Positions 4,090 to 49,203 of a DNA stretch of 64,000 nt are shown piece after piece; positions within the stretch are counted from its first letter, which is position 1; each line of letters opens with the position of its first letter. The DNA is taken from NCBI GenBank assembly GCA_963971425.1, contig OZ020520.1, positions 26,564,724 to 26,628,723 on the forward strand, given 5' to 3'. The notes under the pieces were generated by a model that did not search any database, was not told where the DNA came from, and saw nothing but the letters and a program-made list of their open reading frames with translations. The DNA is from Bryoerythrophyllum caledonicum (taxonomy: Eukaryota > Streptophyta > Bryopsida > Pottiales > Pottiaceae). The translations under genes were made by a program, and so were the position numbers.

Positions 4090-5127
4090 TCAAAATGTGA
4101 TCAAATCCTTGGCATGTTCCGACCTCTGGGCTGTCGTCCTGACGGAGTTTCTGGAGCTTCGAGACGGGCTTCTTCCGCCCTGCAACGCCTGCAACGCCGC
4201 CGCTTCCTCCTTGAGAAGCTTCAACCGCAGCTCGTTCTGTTGCAACCGGTCCCACAGCGACATCGACACAGGGCACAAGCAATACTCCAGCAGCTTCGTC
4301 AAGGAGGCTTGATAGGTGGAAGCGTGATGGATCGCAGCAAGTGGGTGAATCTGACCATCTTTGTTGGTCGACTGCTTCAACGCATTCGCGTACGCTGCGT
4401 GCTCCTCCGCAAACAAAATCTCCTGAAGCGCCACCAGCGAGCTCAGCGGATAGTCCACGTCGTGGATCCGTGGGAGGACCTCCAGCGGCACCTCCTTGCG
4501 CACGTACTGCGCGTCGCTGATGTCGAGCGTCGAGAGATGAAGCGCTTCCTGCATGTCGTCTTCTGGATTGGGAGATGGTTGTTGGATCTTGTCGGCTGTG
4601 GCGAAGAGGCTCTCCTGCTCCTCTAAGCTGATCCTCGTGGCGAGCTCGAGATCGGGATCGTAGCGCGAGGTGCGTCCGTCCTGGGATTGGAACGCGATGG
4701 CCTGGATGCGGCCCACTTTGTTCACGTCCTCGCTAAAGCACGAGAAGATGAGGCCCACGAACCCGGAGTCGAGCATCTGGTATGTGCCTTGCGTGCGCAC
4801 GTCGACGTGGGACGGCATGACCGTGATGTGGGGGTGCGAGTGGTACCACCCGATGACGCGCGTGGTTTTGCCCATGGAGAGCGTCATGCGGTCGGCTTGC
4901 GCCGCGGCGGCCGCCAGCTGCTCCGGGTTCGTCTCCACGCGGTCCTTCTGCCGGTCCTGGCGCGTTTGCGGCGCGGCGCCCCAGATGTAGGCAATGGCGC
5001 CGCCCTGCGAGGTGTACTGGATGTCGCCCAGCAGGAGGCCCATGATCTCTTCGGTTTCCGTGGACAGCGCGTGCGTGACACACGTCAGCCAGACATCTTG
5101 CGTGATTTTCACTCCCTCCAACGCCAT
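4090..5127 (-). CDS. BRCC36: BRCC36-like JAMM/MPN+ lysine-63 deubiquitinase, single exon
   Basis: Zn-dependent Lys63-specific deubiquitinase; in animals and plants a subunit of BRCA1-A/BRISC-type complexes in DNA-damage signalling. The protein is 345 aa counting from the first ATG (5127); codons further upstream in frame are TTG-type only. The JAMM motif is complete: catalytic Glu in EEIMGLLLG (residues 26-27), then [17 protein letters not shown] with H96, H98, S106 and D109. [14 protein letters not shown] and [10 protein letters not shown] are also typical of BRCC36. The C-terminal half is predicted helical (coiled-coil type [19 protein letters not shown]), and the protein ends with DLITF. 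Unlike its neighbours it has no intron, and it is GC-rich. It shares a divergent upstream region with SKIP5. Confidence 0.92.
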
Positions 5128-5152
5128 TGCTGTCAAATCCGCGTCACGAAAG

Positions 5153-6360
5153 CCTCATCCCCTGAAAACTAAAATCCCTGCACAGAATGCGCACCAAATG
5201 ACACCCGATCTCAAATCAATCTAGGTTGCGTAATTCTGCACCTTCTACAATCTACAGGACGACGAAAATTAACGCAGACATGTGCCCACTTGCGTTACAG
5301 AAACAACGACAGAGACATGAGAAATGTCGCGCACTTCAGAAACTGGAAAACCCTCATCCTCTACAAGACAAATGCCTGCACAGAATGAGTCGCATGATTC
5401 TGCACCTCCAACAACCATCAGGAAGAGAATCAAGACAGGGTGAGAAGACATCTACACGCTCGAATCACAGAAACTACGACACACATCGCCTGTAAACCCT
5501 AAACACGAGACCCTAGACCTTAATCACGAGATCTAAGACACAATGCAGGAACCATGAATGCCTCATCCCCTACAAGACAAACGCCTGCACAGAAGGAGCA
5601 GCATTATTCTGCAGCTTCTGCTATCGGAAAGAAGGGAATCAACGCAGAGTGAGAAGACACCTATCCATTCACATTACGACTGTAGACATTCAATCGCAGG
5701 TGAACCCTAAACATGAGACCTGACGCTCAATTCCGAAACCATAAAACCCTCATCCCCTACAAGACAAACGCCTGCACACCAAGAGCACCAAATGAGACCC
5801 GAACCCAAACCAATCAAGCGCATAATTCTGCACCTTACACAAACTACGACACACATCACATACAAACCCTAAATACAAGACACAACACGCAATTCAGAAA
5901 CCACAAAACCCTCATTCTCTACACGCAAGGAGCATAACTCTACAATCTTCAGGACGAGAAACCACCGCAGGCTGAGAAGACATCCACCCACTCACATTAC
6001 AGAAAGTACAACACCCATAAACCCTAATCTCTCACGAACACAAAATCTGACCTGTAATTCGAAGGTCATCTCGGATGTCAGCAAAAACACGATTGTTCAA
6101 GACCAAAATCCCAACGCACACACAACTGTGTGCAATGAGACAAATCGCACACAAGTAGCACCAAATCCCAAACCAATCTGCGCCTTCTACAATCATCGGG
6201 ATGAGAATCAACGCAGAGTGAGCAGACATCTACCCACGACACATCTAACGCGCAATTCGGAACCTCAGATGTCCGCAAGAACACAAACCTCTTCTCAATC
6301 GTCCAAGACCTCACTTCTGCTCGCATGGACGCGCACACATCTCACAACGCTTGAAATGTA
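5153..6360 (+). repeat. Degenerate ~160-210 bp satellite in the BRCC36/SKIP5 divergent promoter
   Basis: About six diverged units in direct order. Landmarks CCTCATCCCCTACAAGAC start near 5153, 5352, 5561, 5748 and 5909. Other landmarks are ATTCTGCACCTTC, GAATCAACGCAGAGTGAG and ACTACGACACACATC. Four units carry the telo-box AAACCCTAA or a one-base variant (5494-5502, 5702-5710, 5874-5882, 6019-6027). Short ORFs here are not credible genes. Confidence 0.75.
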
Positions 6361-15277: not shown

Positions 15278-15340
15278 AGGTGGAGCAACCCGTAACCGCA
15301 ACCTCACTCATAACCAATCCCTAGAGTATGCATGAAATGG

Positions 15341-16524
15341 AACTCCCGATAAAGGCCCCGTACGATTCTTGGACAAATACCTCAAAAAACATGATCTTGT
15401 AAATAACCTAGAAAAACTTACAGAAAACTTCCCCAATATTGATAAATGGACTGGCAACCCAAACATTCACAATGTACTATCCAATAATTTCTGGAAAAAC
15501 CCCACTATAACGGATCCACAAATCACATGCCTAATTAAATTCCGCACAGGGCAATACATGGGCAATGCCCGCAAACAACTCTTCTTTGGAATAGAAAGAT
15601 TCCCTACAATTACATGTCCAATTTGCAACACCACGGACCCAGACACATGGTTACATGTCTTACTCCAGTGCCAAAACCCCCATATACACTCACTAATTGT
15701 TAAAAGACATAACAAAGCCGTATGGGCTATTCGTAAACTACTTATATCATCAACCAAATCCCGATGTTTCATTCTCATGAATGCCGGAACCTTTAATGAC
15801 AACCCACAAGAAAACACGGTCCCTCCTTGGCTATTACCCTGCAGATGTCATACTCAAAGATGCCACTGTAATGCAAGATTCAAACCGGATCTATTATGTG
15901 TTAGAGGACTATCATACAAAGACCCCCCACCAAACCACATAGACCCTAGTCTCACCATCCAATTTATTGAATTCACATATTGCAATGATAGATTCTCTCC
16001 GGACACTATTGCAAACAAAACAAATAAATACCAACCACTACTTCACGACATTCAAGCACTAGGATGGAAAGTAGACCCCCTCATTGTCATCACCGCGGGT
16101 GCTAGAGCCACCACCTTCATCCCCTCAATGACAACCCTTGAAGAAACATTTAAAATCCCCATTACTTCAATCAAAACCACCTTTTCAAATATTAACACTA
16201 TTGCAATTCAACATGCTATGTCGATACTCCTACATAAACGTAAACTTGAAAACAACCAACCCCTACCCGACGCTTCAAACCCCCCTTTATAGATCTACAA
16301 CCGCATTTGCATTTCACCGCACTTGCCCTCCCTCTTTTAGGACTTTTTGAGGCCTAGGGCCCTTTATTCTGGTTTCTTGTTACTGGGTACATAGTGTCCA
16401 CCCTCGAAAGGGGGAAGTAGTTCCATACTACTAACCCATGCCCGATGGGCATGGGCTTAGTGGTGGAACGAACGGGCACTTCACTCACGCCGGCCCCCTA
16501 TGGGGACCGGCGTTCTTCTTCTTT
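15341..16524 (+). mobile_element. 5'-truncated LINE with restriction-like endonuclease end
   Basis: Flanked by perfect 12-bp direct repeats TGCATGAAATGG (15,329-15,340 and 16,525-16,536), the target-site duplication of a single insertion. It contains the last ~317 codons of a LINE ORF, a ~230-bp 3' UTR, a 27-nt hairpin (16,487-16,513) and a short TTC-repeat tail. The perfect duplication and intact frame imply a young insertion. The same tail ends the two SINEs at 47.2-47.9 kb. Confidence 0.88.
15342..16292 (+). CDS. LINE ORF C-terminus: zinc finger and PD-(D/E)XK-like endonuclease
   Basis: The frame is open from the truncation point to TAG at 16,290. In order: an N-terminal stretch from the region after the reverse transcriptase fingers/palm (which is missing); a CPIC-x9-H-x4-C zinc finger (about 15,615-15,670) followed by the LINE-typical KRHNKAVWAIRKLL; a second Cys/His cluster (CRCHTQRCHC); then RFKPDLLCV, IQFIEFTYCND and KTNKYQPL. 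The R..PD / E / K..KY order is that of the restriction-like endonuclease of R2/R4/NeSL-type LINEs, as opposed to the APE-type LINEs (L1, RTE) usual in seed plants. It cannot transpose alone because the reverse transcriptase is absent. Confidence 0.78.
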   Translation, partial: TPDKGPVRFLDKYLKKHDLVNNLEKLTENFPNIDKWTGNPNIHNVLSNNFWKNPTITDPQITCLIKFRTGQYMGNARKQLFFGIERFPTITCPICNTTDPDTWLHVLLQCQNPHIHSLIVKRHNKAVWAIRKLLISSTKSRCFILMNAGTFNDNPQENTVPPWLLPCRCHTQRCHCNARFKPDLLCVRGLSYKDPPPNHIDPSLTIQFIEFTYCNDRFSPDTIANKTNKYQPLLHDIQALGWKVDPLIVITAGARATTFIPSMTTLEETFKIPITSIKTTFSNINTIAIQHAMSILLHKRKLENNQPLPDASNPPL

Positions 16525-16887
16525 TGCATGAAATGGTGAAAATTGACAAGATTAATCTCAAAAAGCTAATATCAATCTTAAAGAGCTAAAATCAATTTCA
16601 AAAAGTTGTTATAAAAATAGTCAGTAGCGGCACTAGGACATGAAGGTGTACAATTTTGGGTTGCTCCACCTCCCTTGAACTCGTAATTGATGAGTTAACC
16701 TCGAAAGTCTAAAAAAAATGCAGTTTCGGATTAAGCATATGTAGGTCATGCATGGCATGCATTCTCTCTTTTATTCAATGTCACTTTGTAGCTTTGGGCA
16801 AAGGAGGGGACAAAATCTCACCCAACTCGCGACAAGTATCTACCAATATAATAGGCGACAATCTGTCTGTCCGCCACTCCTGGTGGA

Positions 16888-35100: not shown

Positions 35101-35547
35101 TTACGTGTCCGCGAATATTCAACCACATCGAGATGTGAAGATATTATTCTCTATTTGAGTTGTGATGGAGGTTGGAGCCTAGGGCCAACCTTTCAGAAAT
35201 TCTGGGGCGCTCTTGCGAGCACCGCAGGGGGGTTGGAAATAGTTTTCAACCAGCAATTGACGCGTCTCGGTGTAACCTCACTAACTGCGTCATTGCCCCA
35301 AGCGCAAAGATAACTCAAGTGTATACCACTTCCCCTCTATATACCCCTCTCAACGACAACGTCCGCCTATGTTTATGGGATATATCGTCTCTGGTTCACC
35401 TTTCCCGGCTTCCTTTCCACTGATTGTGCAGACGCACTCTGTTCAAGCGCCAAACTTCGAGTAGTAGTTCTTTTTTTTGGCATTCCTTTTTTATGGTTTC
35501 GTCCCTTTTCACATTTTTTATTGTTAATTTTGATCATTGTGTAGCTC

Positions 35548-46194: not shown

Positions 46195-47139
46195 AATTTC
46201 CTTGACAATTTTCTCCAAAAACACTCCAAATTTGTAAATTCTAGTGCAATGAGTAAGGAAAGAAACAACAAATTGTATTTCTCGTTTTTATTGTAGGATC
46301 TCATTTAACATTTAATGAATAACATACTCACAGAATCTCATCAAATTTGACCCCACGAATTGAAAAATTATGGTGTTTGACGTAGAAAAAATGGTTCATT
46401 TTCATCTATGCGTTGAGTGGATTAACAGACTTTGACTTCAGCTGGTGTCAAATTTTTGCACTATACAAGGTCTAAATTTTATATCATCATGTTGATTGTG
46501 ATACTAACTCTTTGTATACCAAGTTTTAGAGGTAGGGAAGAGATGTAGCATAATCAAAAAACTTGTGCAAGGAGTGGAGGTTTAAAAAAATGTCAATTCA
46601 AGTTTTAATCTTTTGGGAACAAAATATGTTTTAGAATGATAATCCGAATAGTCAATAAGAAGGTTTACACAACGTCTTGTAATAGAAAAAAAATAAAAAG
46701 TGAAAAATATGAAGATCTCAAAGTTTTATATGGAAAAGAAGAAGTTTTTTGGGTTCCTTGCCCAACAATGAGTGGCTATGTGTGAAAATCTTTGACTTGG
46801 AACAAGATGCATTTTTTCACTAAAGACAAGAATTTTCTCTTGAAAATATGAAAGAAGGTAGTATTACTTGCTAGTATTGAAAATCTCAAATTTACTAGAG
46901 TGTCCTAGCAAAAGTTTTTGGAGTTGCCCAATGTGCCCGCACTCGACAAGTTTTTCTTTAAGATGGCATAACTTTTTTTTAATAAGTCTGATGAGAATAA
47001 AAATTACACTCCTACATTATGCTTGTCTTCTTGCATCTCTGTACAAATTTTCAAGAATTGAAAATACAAATTGCAATCATAGGAATGTGTCCAAGATTTG
47101 CAAAAGCCGACCTTGGGACTTTTTTCATTTAGGGGTTAA
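46195..47139 (-). mobile_element. TTAA-flanked element with CCCCTAAAT ends, ~0.94 kb copy
   Basis: TTAA at 46,195-46,198 and 47,136-47,139; 9-bp terminal repeat CCCCTAAAT. The interior is the reverse of the 34.2 kb copy. Around 46,520 (TTTGTATACCAAGTTTTAG) it preserves the site occupied by the Tc1 element at 36.5 kb. Confidence 0.7.
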
Positions 47140-47201
47140 ATTTCTATCACCTAAGCATTACATGGGTATCACATAGGAATCACACGAGCATCACCTTGAC
47201 A

Positions 47202-47412
47202 TAAGAAGAAGAAGAAGAACGCCGATCTCCGAAGGAAGCCGGCGTGAATAAAGTGTCTGTTCGTTCTACTACTAAGACCATGCCCACCGGACAAGGAATT
47301 AGTTTCAATGAATGCAGCATCGGGACTTCTCGGGAGGTCACCCATCTCAGTACTATTCGGGCCCAAAAGCGCTTAACTTCAGAGTTCTAATGGGATCTGG
47401 TGTAGTAGAACC
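47202..47412 (-). mobile_element. SINE with 5S rRNA head and LINE-derived tail
   Basis: Read on the minus strand. Head 47,413 to ~47,310 matches 5S rRNA: AGATCCCATTAGAACTC, then AGTTAAGCGCTTTTGGGC (box A), then AGATGGGTGACCTCCCGAG (box C), ending GATGCTGCATTC; about 17 nt near position 20 are missing. Tail ~47,296-47,202 matches the LINE 3' end (GTGGGCATGG, TAGAACGAACAGACACTT, hairpin 47,219-47,245) and ends in TTC repeats. Flanking CACCTTGACA / CACCTAGACA (47,192-47,201; 47,413-47,422) looks like a target duplication with one mismatch. Not a 5S gene, because it lacks a faithful 5' end and terminator. Confidence 0.82.
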
Positions 47413-47502
47413 CACCTAGACAAATGTCTTGAATTTTCCAAAGATTTTGGACATCCTCCATTGTGAATAATTAAACTATTTACAAAACTGACTATACGCT
47501 TT

Positions 47503-47853
47503 TAGCGAAGAAGAACTTCGGTCTCCAAAGGAGACCGACGTGAATATAGTGTTTGTTCATTCTCTTCACTAAGCATATGGCCACGGGACATAGGCTAGTG
47601 TAATAAAACTACTCCCCCCTCTTGAGGATAAACACTTTTCTACACTAAGTGCTTCCCTACACTAATTGCCTTAGAGACAACCGACATGTCATCTCCCCCA
47701 AGGGCTTTGTGGGTCCCCATACAACGAGGCCTTGGGACCCCCACCATAATTGGGTGGACTATGGTGGTAGGCACCACGCCGGCAACAGGATTTGAACTCA
47801 CAACCACCTCACCAGTGTGCCATGACCCAAACCACTACACCAAGGCCGTGGTG
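47503..47853 (-). mobile_element. SINE with tRNA head and the same LINE-derived tail
   Basis: Minus strand: A box TGGTGTAGTGG (47,842-47,832) and B box GAGTTCAAATCC (47,799-47,788), ~33 nt apart, the pol III promoter of a tRNA-derived SINE. A ~150-bp body follows, then GAGGGGGGAGTAGTTTTATT and CTTAGTGAAGAGAATGAACA, matching the LINE 3' UTR. Then come the hairpin (47,515-47,541) and TTCTTC. A possible short target duplication is GCTTTTAG / GCTTTAG. Complete SINE architecture. Confidence 0.8.
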
Positions 47854-48165
47854 CTTTAGTGTAATGGTACAATTAGTGTAGTTACCCTAGTACACTATTT
47901 GTTAACAAGTTGGCAATTAGTCTTAGCCGCCATTGTCATGAATATCATCCCTCAATCGTCCACCTACCCTAGTATTCATAGTATTAGCCCCCAATCAACC
48001 ACCTACCCTAGCACAAAAATTTGTTAACAAGTTGATAAATAGTGTTAGCCCCCAATCAACCGTCTACCTAACGCCATGCAATTATTCTCACTCTCTCATC
48101 CTCAACCTCATGTCCTTATCCTTCCATTCCCAACTATACCAATTCACATCTCTTGCATTCCTTGA
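47854..48165. other. Gene-free spacer
   Basis: Contains repeated phrases such as CCCCAATCAACC.CCTACC (~47,990 and ~48,050). No gene. Confidence 0.4.
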
Positions 48166-48645
48166 ATTTTTTTAATGAATCTCTAATGAATATTTCATGT
48201 ATATTTATATATTTTAATATAAATTTAATGAATTTTCAATGAATGTTTATAGAATATATAAATAGTATTTAAAGAATATTTGTATATTTAGTGTACATTT
48301 GTATATTTTAAGAATATTTAATGAATACTTAAATAATATTTAATGAATCTTTAGAATTTTAGATGTACATTTTATGACAATTTAATGTATATTTGTATAT
48401 TTAACAATTATTTAATGAATATTTATTGAATGTTTTATGAATATTTAATGAATAGTTAATGAATAGTTAATAAATTTCTAATGTATATTTAATGTGTATT
48501 TGAATATTTAATGAAATTTTAATGAATGTTTAATGCATATTTAATGAATACTAAATGCATATTTAATGAATACTTAATGCATATTTTATGCATATTTAAT
48601 GAATATCTAATGATTATTTAATGTATATTTCTATATTTATTGTGT
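48166..48645 (+). repeat. AT-rich degenerate minisatellite (~11-bp TTTAATGAATA)
   Basis: Some forty variants of TTTAATGAATA / TTTAATGCATA / TTTGTATA in a row, almost no G or C. Confidence 0.8.
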
Positions 48646-48972: not shown

Positions 48973-49203
48973 GAGTAGTACACTAAAGATCACATTTAGT
49001 GTATGTCACACTAATTGATTTATAAATCCAGTAACTTTTTACTCTTGATGAATATTTTTACCAACTATGTCTATAATGATCCACCTCTTTGAGTAGTGTA
49101 GATAGTTGTGCTCATAGTAAAAATATTCATCAAGAGTAAAAAGTTATTGGATTTATAAATACCTTAGTGTGACATACACTAAATGTGATCTTTAGCGTAG
49201 TTG
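48973..49203. repeat. Foldback palindrome, copy 2
   Basis: Arms of ~90 bp (CTAAAGATCACATTTAGTGT and on to TTTTTACTCTTGATGAATAT) inverted around a ~50-bp loop containing CCAACTATGTCTATAATGAT. Flanked by further TTAGTGTAG phrases (49.2-49.35 kb). Confidence 0.75.

Follow-up and report, generated by a model that had tools for sequence, protein, structure and literature searches.

The 64-kb stretch of DNA analysed here (the window) contains two short repeats, one with a head derived from 5S rRNA and the other with a tRNA-type head, and both end in the same 3′ block as a LINE. The question raised by this locus is whether the two repeats are retroposons that borrowed the tail of that LINE. We consider it likely (probability about 0.72) that both short units are relics of SINE-type non-autonomous retroposons, the RNA of which ended in a tail taken from a LINE in the same genome, one of the type encoding a restriction-like endonuclease (RLE). 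One copy of each short unit is present in the 64-kb window; both lie on the minus strand in the same orientation, 90 bp apart.

A common 3′ tail in three units

A common 3′ tail of 92-93 nt closes the LINE, the 5S-headed unit and the tRNA-type unit, which are placed as follows (with the evidence for each in brackets):

15341-16524, plus strand: LINE copy, 5′-truncated, with the common tail (duplication, tail homology)
16430-16521, plus strand: LINE 3′ tail, with hairpin 1 (16430-16461), linker, hairpin 2 (16488-16512) and TTC repeats (alignment, folding)
47202-47412, minus strand: 5S-headed unit, with 5S sequence (about nt 16 through the mature 3′ end) followed by the LINE-type tail, TTC repeats and TTA (RF00001, tail homology, duplication)
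47211-47303, minus strand: tail of the 5S unit, with hairpin 1 at about 47271-47303, hairpin 2 (47220-47244) and TTC repeats (alignment, covariance model, folding)
47503-47853, minus strand: tRNA-type unit, with a box A/B head and the common tail, 5′ end at about 47853, ends as in the initial annotation (tail homology, boxes)
47507-47599, minus strand: tail of the tRNA-type unit, with hairpin 1 at about 47568-47599, hairpin 2 (47516-47540) and TTC repeats (alignment, covariance model, folding)

The layout is the same in the LINE and both short units: ACTAA/G, hairpin 1, TTAGT, a linker like GAAYGAACRRRCACTWYAYTCA, hairpin 2 (25 nt in each tail) and GTTCTTCTTC. Counted over 94 columns aligned by hand and checked against the window sequence, the LINE tail is identical to that of the 5S unit at 74/92 positions and to that of the tRNA-type unit at 67/92, while the two short units agree at 69/92. 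Comparisons by blastn within the 64-kb window gave 82% identity across 88 nt for the 5S unit and the LINE (E 4.9e-20), 72% across 130 nt for the tRNA-type unit and the LINE (E 2e-14), and 79% across 84 nt for the two short units (E 4.6e-14). With E values of up to 10 admitted, a covariance model built from the three tails and run on the window returned 8 rows; the tails themselves score 98-113 bits, and the remaining 5 rows are weak (8.9-20.9 bits), lie on the opposite strand and each overlap one of the same three tails, so that this model found no fourth tail copy in the 64-kb window. The tail block is real and well above chance, and the initial annotation, which had described it, is upheld by the blastn values (E 4.9e-20 to 4.6e-14) and the covariance model. 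A phrase that it had quoted for the block, GGGCATGG, is not what the tRNA-type unit carries; the actual sequence there is GGCCATAT.

RNA folding yields hairpin 1 and hairpin 2 in all three tails. The fold is strongest in the LINE (z -6.8, 0/200 shuffles as stable) and in the tRNA-type unit (z -3.8, 0/200), and weaker in the 5S unit (z -1.9, 7/200). Across the three tails, 30/33 cells of hairpin 2 are paired, compared with 30-52% in slid versions, and 2/11 pairs differ on both sides (C-G vs U-A); stems that differ and still pair had been proposed from the letters, and they are found here. As covariation the two double-sided changes are suggestive at most, because 60/500 shuffles reach the observed level and only three sequences are compared. 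Since the 3′ end of the LINE is present in both short units, their mobilisation by the LINE, as originally suggested, is the natural reading.

A LINE with motifs of a restriction-like endonuclease

The LINE copy is delimited by a target duplication and carries an open frame:

15329-15340, plus strand: LINE target duplication, 5′ copy, TGCATGAAATGG (12/12 match)
16525-16536, plus strand: LINE target duplication, 3′ copy, TGCATGAAATGG (12/12 match)
15336-16292, plus strand: open frame with the 3′ coding part of the LINE, with CCHC and RLE motifs and without reverse transcriptase (ORF motifs)

The perfect 12-bp duplication was reached by 13/20000 random placements (1/2000 in a looser test), and the interval first claimed for the LINE (15341-16524) coincides exactly with the sequence enclosed by the copies of TGCATGAAATGG. 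The open frame has 318 codons and happens to continue for a few nt beyond the 5′ edge of the insertion. Its motifs, located by regular expressions apart from RH, which was read by eye, follow the order CCHC, RH (...KRHNK...), KPD...E (FKPDLL...IEFT), KX2KY (KTNKY) and GAR; KPD and GAR are likewise RLE motifs. Published RLE LINEs have a CCHC knuckle of the form CX2-3CX7-8HX4C, a conserved pair at the start of the endonuclease (RH in R2Bm) and a PD-(D/E)XK core in which the catalytic K is the first of KX2KY (PMC5678591); the knuckle in the window, CX2CX9HX4C, is one residue longer.

Because RH, KPD...E and KX2KY follow CCHC, we assign the LINE by its motifs, with good confidence, to the RLE-encoding type (CRE/R2/R4/HERO/NeSL/Utopia, or Dualen). 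The copy starts downstream of any reverse transcriptase (RT) domain, and since the RT thus lies outside it, the LINE is given no clade. Pfam gave no match to the open frame at E up to 1, a PDB sequence search none at E up to 5, and tblastn no other copy in the 64-kb window (best other E 0.60); a single-sequence structure model had a pLDDT of 35.5, a fold that is unusable. Judged by its motifs, the LINE is unlike the L1 and RTE LINEs usual in flowering plants, and its RLE type, which the first look at the sequence had missed, is arguably the most unusual part of the locus.

Some RLE-bearing groups have a described host range. Utopia is reported from three supergroups, with Archaeplastida not among them in the passages cited (PMC4640811); Dualen is described there with both APE and RLE, and the part of a 2015 survey cited here lists Dualen/RandI for green algae only (PMC4438587). 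For the comparison with RandI/Dualen, the window LINE is known from its 3′ part alone, and an APE region would lie outside the window.

The 5S-headed unit

The head of the first short unit and the duplication around it are located as follows:

47306-47412, minus strand: 5S rRNA-derived head (RF00001 and alignment to plant 5S)
47413-47422, minus strand: target duplication, 5′ copy, TGTCTAGGTG (9/10 match to the 3′ copy)
47192-47201, minus strand: target duplication, 3′ copy, TGTCAAGGTG, immediately beyond the tail (9/10 match to the 5′ copy)

The 5S identity proposed for this head is borne out by a full-model match to Rfam RF00001 (58.6 bits against a gathering score of 38, E 1e-9; model positions 1-120, window 47309-47427). 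The first ~25 model positions match poorly, and the part past 47412 includes a copy of the target duplication. The near-duplication, TGTC[T/A]AGGTG (10 bp), fixes the 5′ end of the unit at 47412, about nt 16 of 5S, and the ends originally given (47202-47412) mark exactly the stretch between its two copies. At the other side of the head, the mature 3′ end of 5S (model position 120) lies at 47309, and homology to the LINE tail begins 5 nt beyond it by hand alignment (47303) or 12 nt beyond it by blastn (47296). A duplication of 9/10 was reached by 106/20000 random placements when the 3′ copy had to follow the TTC tail, and in 136/2000 of a looser, free-placement test. Because one near-duplication encloses both, the 5S head and the tail were inserted together.

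These relations bear on the idea that a 5S relic and a tRNA-type relic are chance neighbours of insertions of an unrelated third repeat. That one copy of each unit is available leaves some room for it; against it, the near-duplication encloses the 5S head plus the tail, both of these point the same way, only 5 nt (hand alignment) to 12 nt (blastn) separate the mature 5S end from the start of tail homology, and two different heads show the same arrangement. We rejected chance juxtaposition, which we regard as very improbable, on the duplication, the shared orientation, the close junction and the recurrence of the arrangement with two different heads. The initial annotation had raised a version of it in which the tail landed next to an unrelated 5S relic; a duplication spanning head and tail, and a head that reaches the mature 5S end close to the tail, contradict this.

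Among plant mobile elements, Cassandra-type TRIMs, with 5S inside their LTRs, are the ones known to carry 5S sequence (PMC10886601), and one of these could in principle have supplied the 5S piece. The unit ends instead in a LINE tail and TTC repeats, and a Cassandra relic, which is hardly credible here, was rejected for want of an LTR pair in 47100-48000. Three direct-repeat families were found in that interval: one is formed by the two tails (57 nt), and the others are short pairs of 17 and 10 nt.

Retroposition of head and tail as one unit is our reading of this copy, which has diverged. The head resembles plant 5S in sequence; scored against a plant 5S reference, 79/104 aligned positions are identical, with 17 transitions and 8 transversions. 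The promoter boxes are kept no better than the rest (30/39 vs 49/65). TTTT, a Pol III stop signal, is present in both short units (unit positions 45 and 242), once inside the 5S head. Full transcripts from these two short copies are probably not produced, since each contains TTTT, and this copy of the 5S unit is probably old and silent, given its diverged head, promoter boxes that are not favoured and TTTT within the head. As read from its letters, the unit has three features of SINE3, namely a 5S-derived head, a LINE-derived 3′ end and a duplication around head and tail; transcription of such a unit by Pol III from a 5S-type promoter would be expected.

At its 5′ end the 5S unit reads GTTCTACTAC (47402-47411), which is perfectly complementary over 10 nt to GTAGTAGAAC within the tail of the same unit (47263-47272). 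In the LINE fold, the segment matching GTAGTAGAAC pairs with an arm just 5′ of hairpin 1. The complementarity in the 5S unit may be due to chance (blastn E 0.60) or may serve a long-range closure of the RNA.

The tRNA-type unit

The head of the second short unit is defined by two boxes:

47832-47842, minus strand: box A, TGGTGTAGTGG (match to consensus)
47789-47797, minus strand: box B, GTTCAAATC, 34 nt past box A (match to consensus)

Boxes A and B stand near the 5′ end at tRNA spacing, 34 nt apart; a scan of both strands of the 64-kb window yielded 2 pairs of this kind, of which this is one. The tRNA head named in the initial annotation is supported by these boxes and not by tRNA models: ARAGORN found 0 tRNA genes, and none of the 4 rows that Rfam gave with E values of up to 10 is the tRNA family (RF00005). 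We therefore call the unit tRNA-type and not tRNA-derived, its identity being given by the boxes. Target duplications, proposed at the outset as a check, are found for the LINE (12/12) and the 5S unit (9/10), whereas the candidate at the tRNA-type unit (CTAAAGC / CTAAAAGC) is not significant (4284/20000 random placements; 1169/2000 in the looser test).

Similarity of this unit to the LINE extends over ~130 nt, some 40 nt farther upstream than in the 5S unit; the extra stretch, matched by eye, reads CCCTCGAAAGGGGG in the LINE and TCCTCAAGAGGGGG in the tRNA-type unit. With a shared part of ~130 nt in one and 88-93 nt in the other, the junction with the LINE tail appears to lie at a different point in each of the two short units.

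A 26-nt inverted repeat, 77% complementary (47640-47665 / 47856-47881), has one arm in the body of the tRNA-type unit and the other in the 5′ flank, and beside it is a perfect 12-nt inverted repeat (47657-47668 / 47870-47881). Given these repeats, the true 5′ end of the unit may lie upstream of 47853. An AT-rich tandem array with periods of 11, 22 and 33 bp (48171-48630) begins a few hundred bp past the unit.

Proposed origin of the two short units

Mobilisation of both short units by the LINE would proceed in a few steps. The Pol III promoter in the head (of 5S type in one unit, tRNA-type A/B boxes in the other) would make the RNA, the LINE protein would bind the two-hairpin tail of that RNA, and target-primed reverse transcription would copy it into the cut target, starting at the TTC end. 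The 5S unit probably originated when the LINE reverse transcriptase copied the tail and then switched template to the 3′ end of mature 5S rRNA, an event suggested because the fusion sits near that end. Each short unit would have moved repeatedly by the same route.

A serious alternative, although one that we hold less likely than not, is that the 5S unit is a one-off chimeric retrocopy, for which the LINE machinery jumped once from the tail to 5S rRNA and which never multiplied, leaving the tRNA-type unit as the sole SINE. A history of this kind would agree with the single 5S-headed copy in the window, with a head reaching the mature 3′ end as a single template switch would leave it, and with the absence of the first ~15 nt of 5S, as in a single 5′-truncated event; it agrees less well with a 5S unit tail that differs from this LINE at 18/92 positions. 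There are also 10 tail columns in which both short units share a state against the LINE, hinting that the tail has a history of its own. The hint is weak, because 8 of these 10 columns show C or G in the LINE against T or A in both short units, changes that cytosine-methylation decay could yield twice.

The same 10 columns speak for a history that we hold possible rather than probable, and which is compatible with LINE-driven retroposition of both units: the LINE tail was captured once, and one short unit arose from the other by head exchange, as has been proposed for HaSE3 from HaSE1 in Helicoverpa (PMC3272025). On the other side, the 5S unit sides with the LINE against the tRNA-type unit in more columns (16) than it sides with the tRNA-type unit against the LINE (10), and the junctions differ, the LINE-shared part being ~130 nt in the tRNA-type unit and 88-93 nt in the 5S unit. 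The LINE and the tRNA-type unit agree against the 5S unit in 9 columns (gap columns are counted in the 16 and the 9). Since a comparison of three sequences has no root, these counts give no verdict on which short unit is nearer to the LINE.

Comparison with known SINE/LINE pairs

That SINEs borrow a LINE tail, and that one LINE can serve both a 5S-headed and a tRNA-headed SINE, is established in animals. One such LINE, BovB, belongs to the RTE clade. In the springhare, Ped-1 (5S) and Ped-2 (tRNA) go with BovB, and in salmonids OS-SINE1 (5S) and SlmI/HpaI (tRNA) go with RSg-1 (PMC3747384); like the window, both sets have one LINE tail and two kinds of head, and they differ in that the hosts are vertebrates and the LINEs of other clades. 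In Helicoverpa armigera, HaSE1 (tRNA) and HaSE3 (5S) use the tail of HaRTE1 (PMC3272025), a trio like that of the window in that a tRNA-headed and a 5S-headed SINE share one LINE tail in the same genome, and template switching to 5S rRNA has been proposed for it, as for the 5S unit here. The Helicoverpa case differs in being an insect with an RTE LINE and TGA repeats, and in having multi-copy SINEs that share body and tail, whereas the window units are known from one copy each and share the tail only (PMC3272025). SINE3 of zebrafish and other animals resembles the 5S unit in its 5S-derived head and LINE tail; zebrafish SINE3 differs in being an animal element with a CR1 tail (PMC3747384).

In the green lineage, Chlamydomonas SINEX-1, -2, -4 and -5/6_CR pair with RandI/Dualen (PMC3747384). 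They resemble the window units as short elements that end in a LINE-group tail, that group being described as encoding both APE and RLE (PMC4640811), and differ in being from an alga, in having (ATT)n or (CTTT)n and not (TTC)n as 3′ repeats, and in having tRNA heads or heads of unknown origin, none of 5S type in the part of the source cited. Three flowering-plant pairs were listed as of 2013, those of tobacco TS and maize ZmSINE2 and ZmSINE3, with partners of the RTE and L1 clades (PMC3747384); these too are plant SINEs with a LINE tail, with tRNA heads and RTE/L1 partners in contrast to the 5S head and RLE-type LINE of the window.

The suggestion made at the outset that the arrangement might be undescribed therefore stands in part: 5S- and tRNA-headed SINEs on one LINE tail are published in animals, while a 5S-headed plant SINE was not among the literature matches listed (titles and abstract starts in open-licence PMC, with Repbase outside that scope). 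Nor was a land-plant RLE LINE, alone or paired with a SINE, among the matches listed (titles and abstract starts in open-licence PMC). The host and the type of LINE partner appear to be new. Searches of sequence collections not expected to hold plant DNA gave 0 matches to the tail patterns, 5S patterns and tRNA-type head in viral contigs, 0 matches to the tail pattern in prokaryotic genome contigs, and one pattern match to the LINE protein in viral contigs that was unsupported by tblastn.

Tentatively, and on less firm ground than the retroposon reading itself, the host, a green plant and possibly a non-seed land plant, could carry an RLE LINE outside the L1 and RTE clades of flowering plants, the tail of which was captured at two points by two Pol III SINE families of separate birth. 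The 5S-headed one would be the first such SINE family of plants. It would also be the type of donor that has been postulated to explain Cassandra's 5S promoter, speculated to derive from the insertion of a SINE3 into an LTR (PMC10886601); with a plant 5S-SINE at hand, that origin could be tested directly. If true, the presence in a land plant of an RLE LINE that has SINE partners would extend both the list of pairs cited from PMC3747384 and the survey in PMC4438587. Work on R2, itself an RLE LINE, concerns DNA insertion (PMC12222951), and a SINE-LINE pair of this kind would be a natural map of the minimal RNA tail accepted by an R2-like RLE protein.

Neighbouring features

Neighbouring exons in the window match plant 2-oxoglutarate oxygenases, Arabidopsis At5g05600 among them (best E 5e-19), and the plant channels MSL10 and Flycatcher1 (best E 4e-10). 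These proteins make a green plant a safe assignment for the host, and a land plant is likely. The window also contains the following:

35171-35311, minus strand: complete match to U4 spliceosomal RNA (RF00015, 106.9 bits, gathering 46)
49038-49140: hairpin with arms of ~26 bp, like a miRNA precursor or a MITE, under Rfam gathering scores
24901-26220, plus strand: Helitron helicase fragment (Helitron_like_N, Pif1 2B domain)
4090-5154, minus strand: BRCC36-type JAB/MPN protein in a long uninterrupted frame
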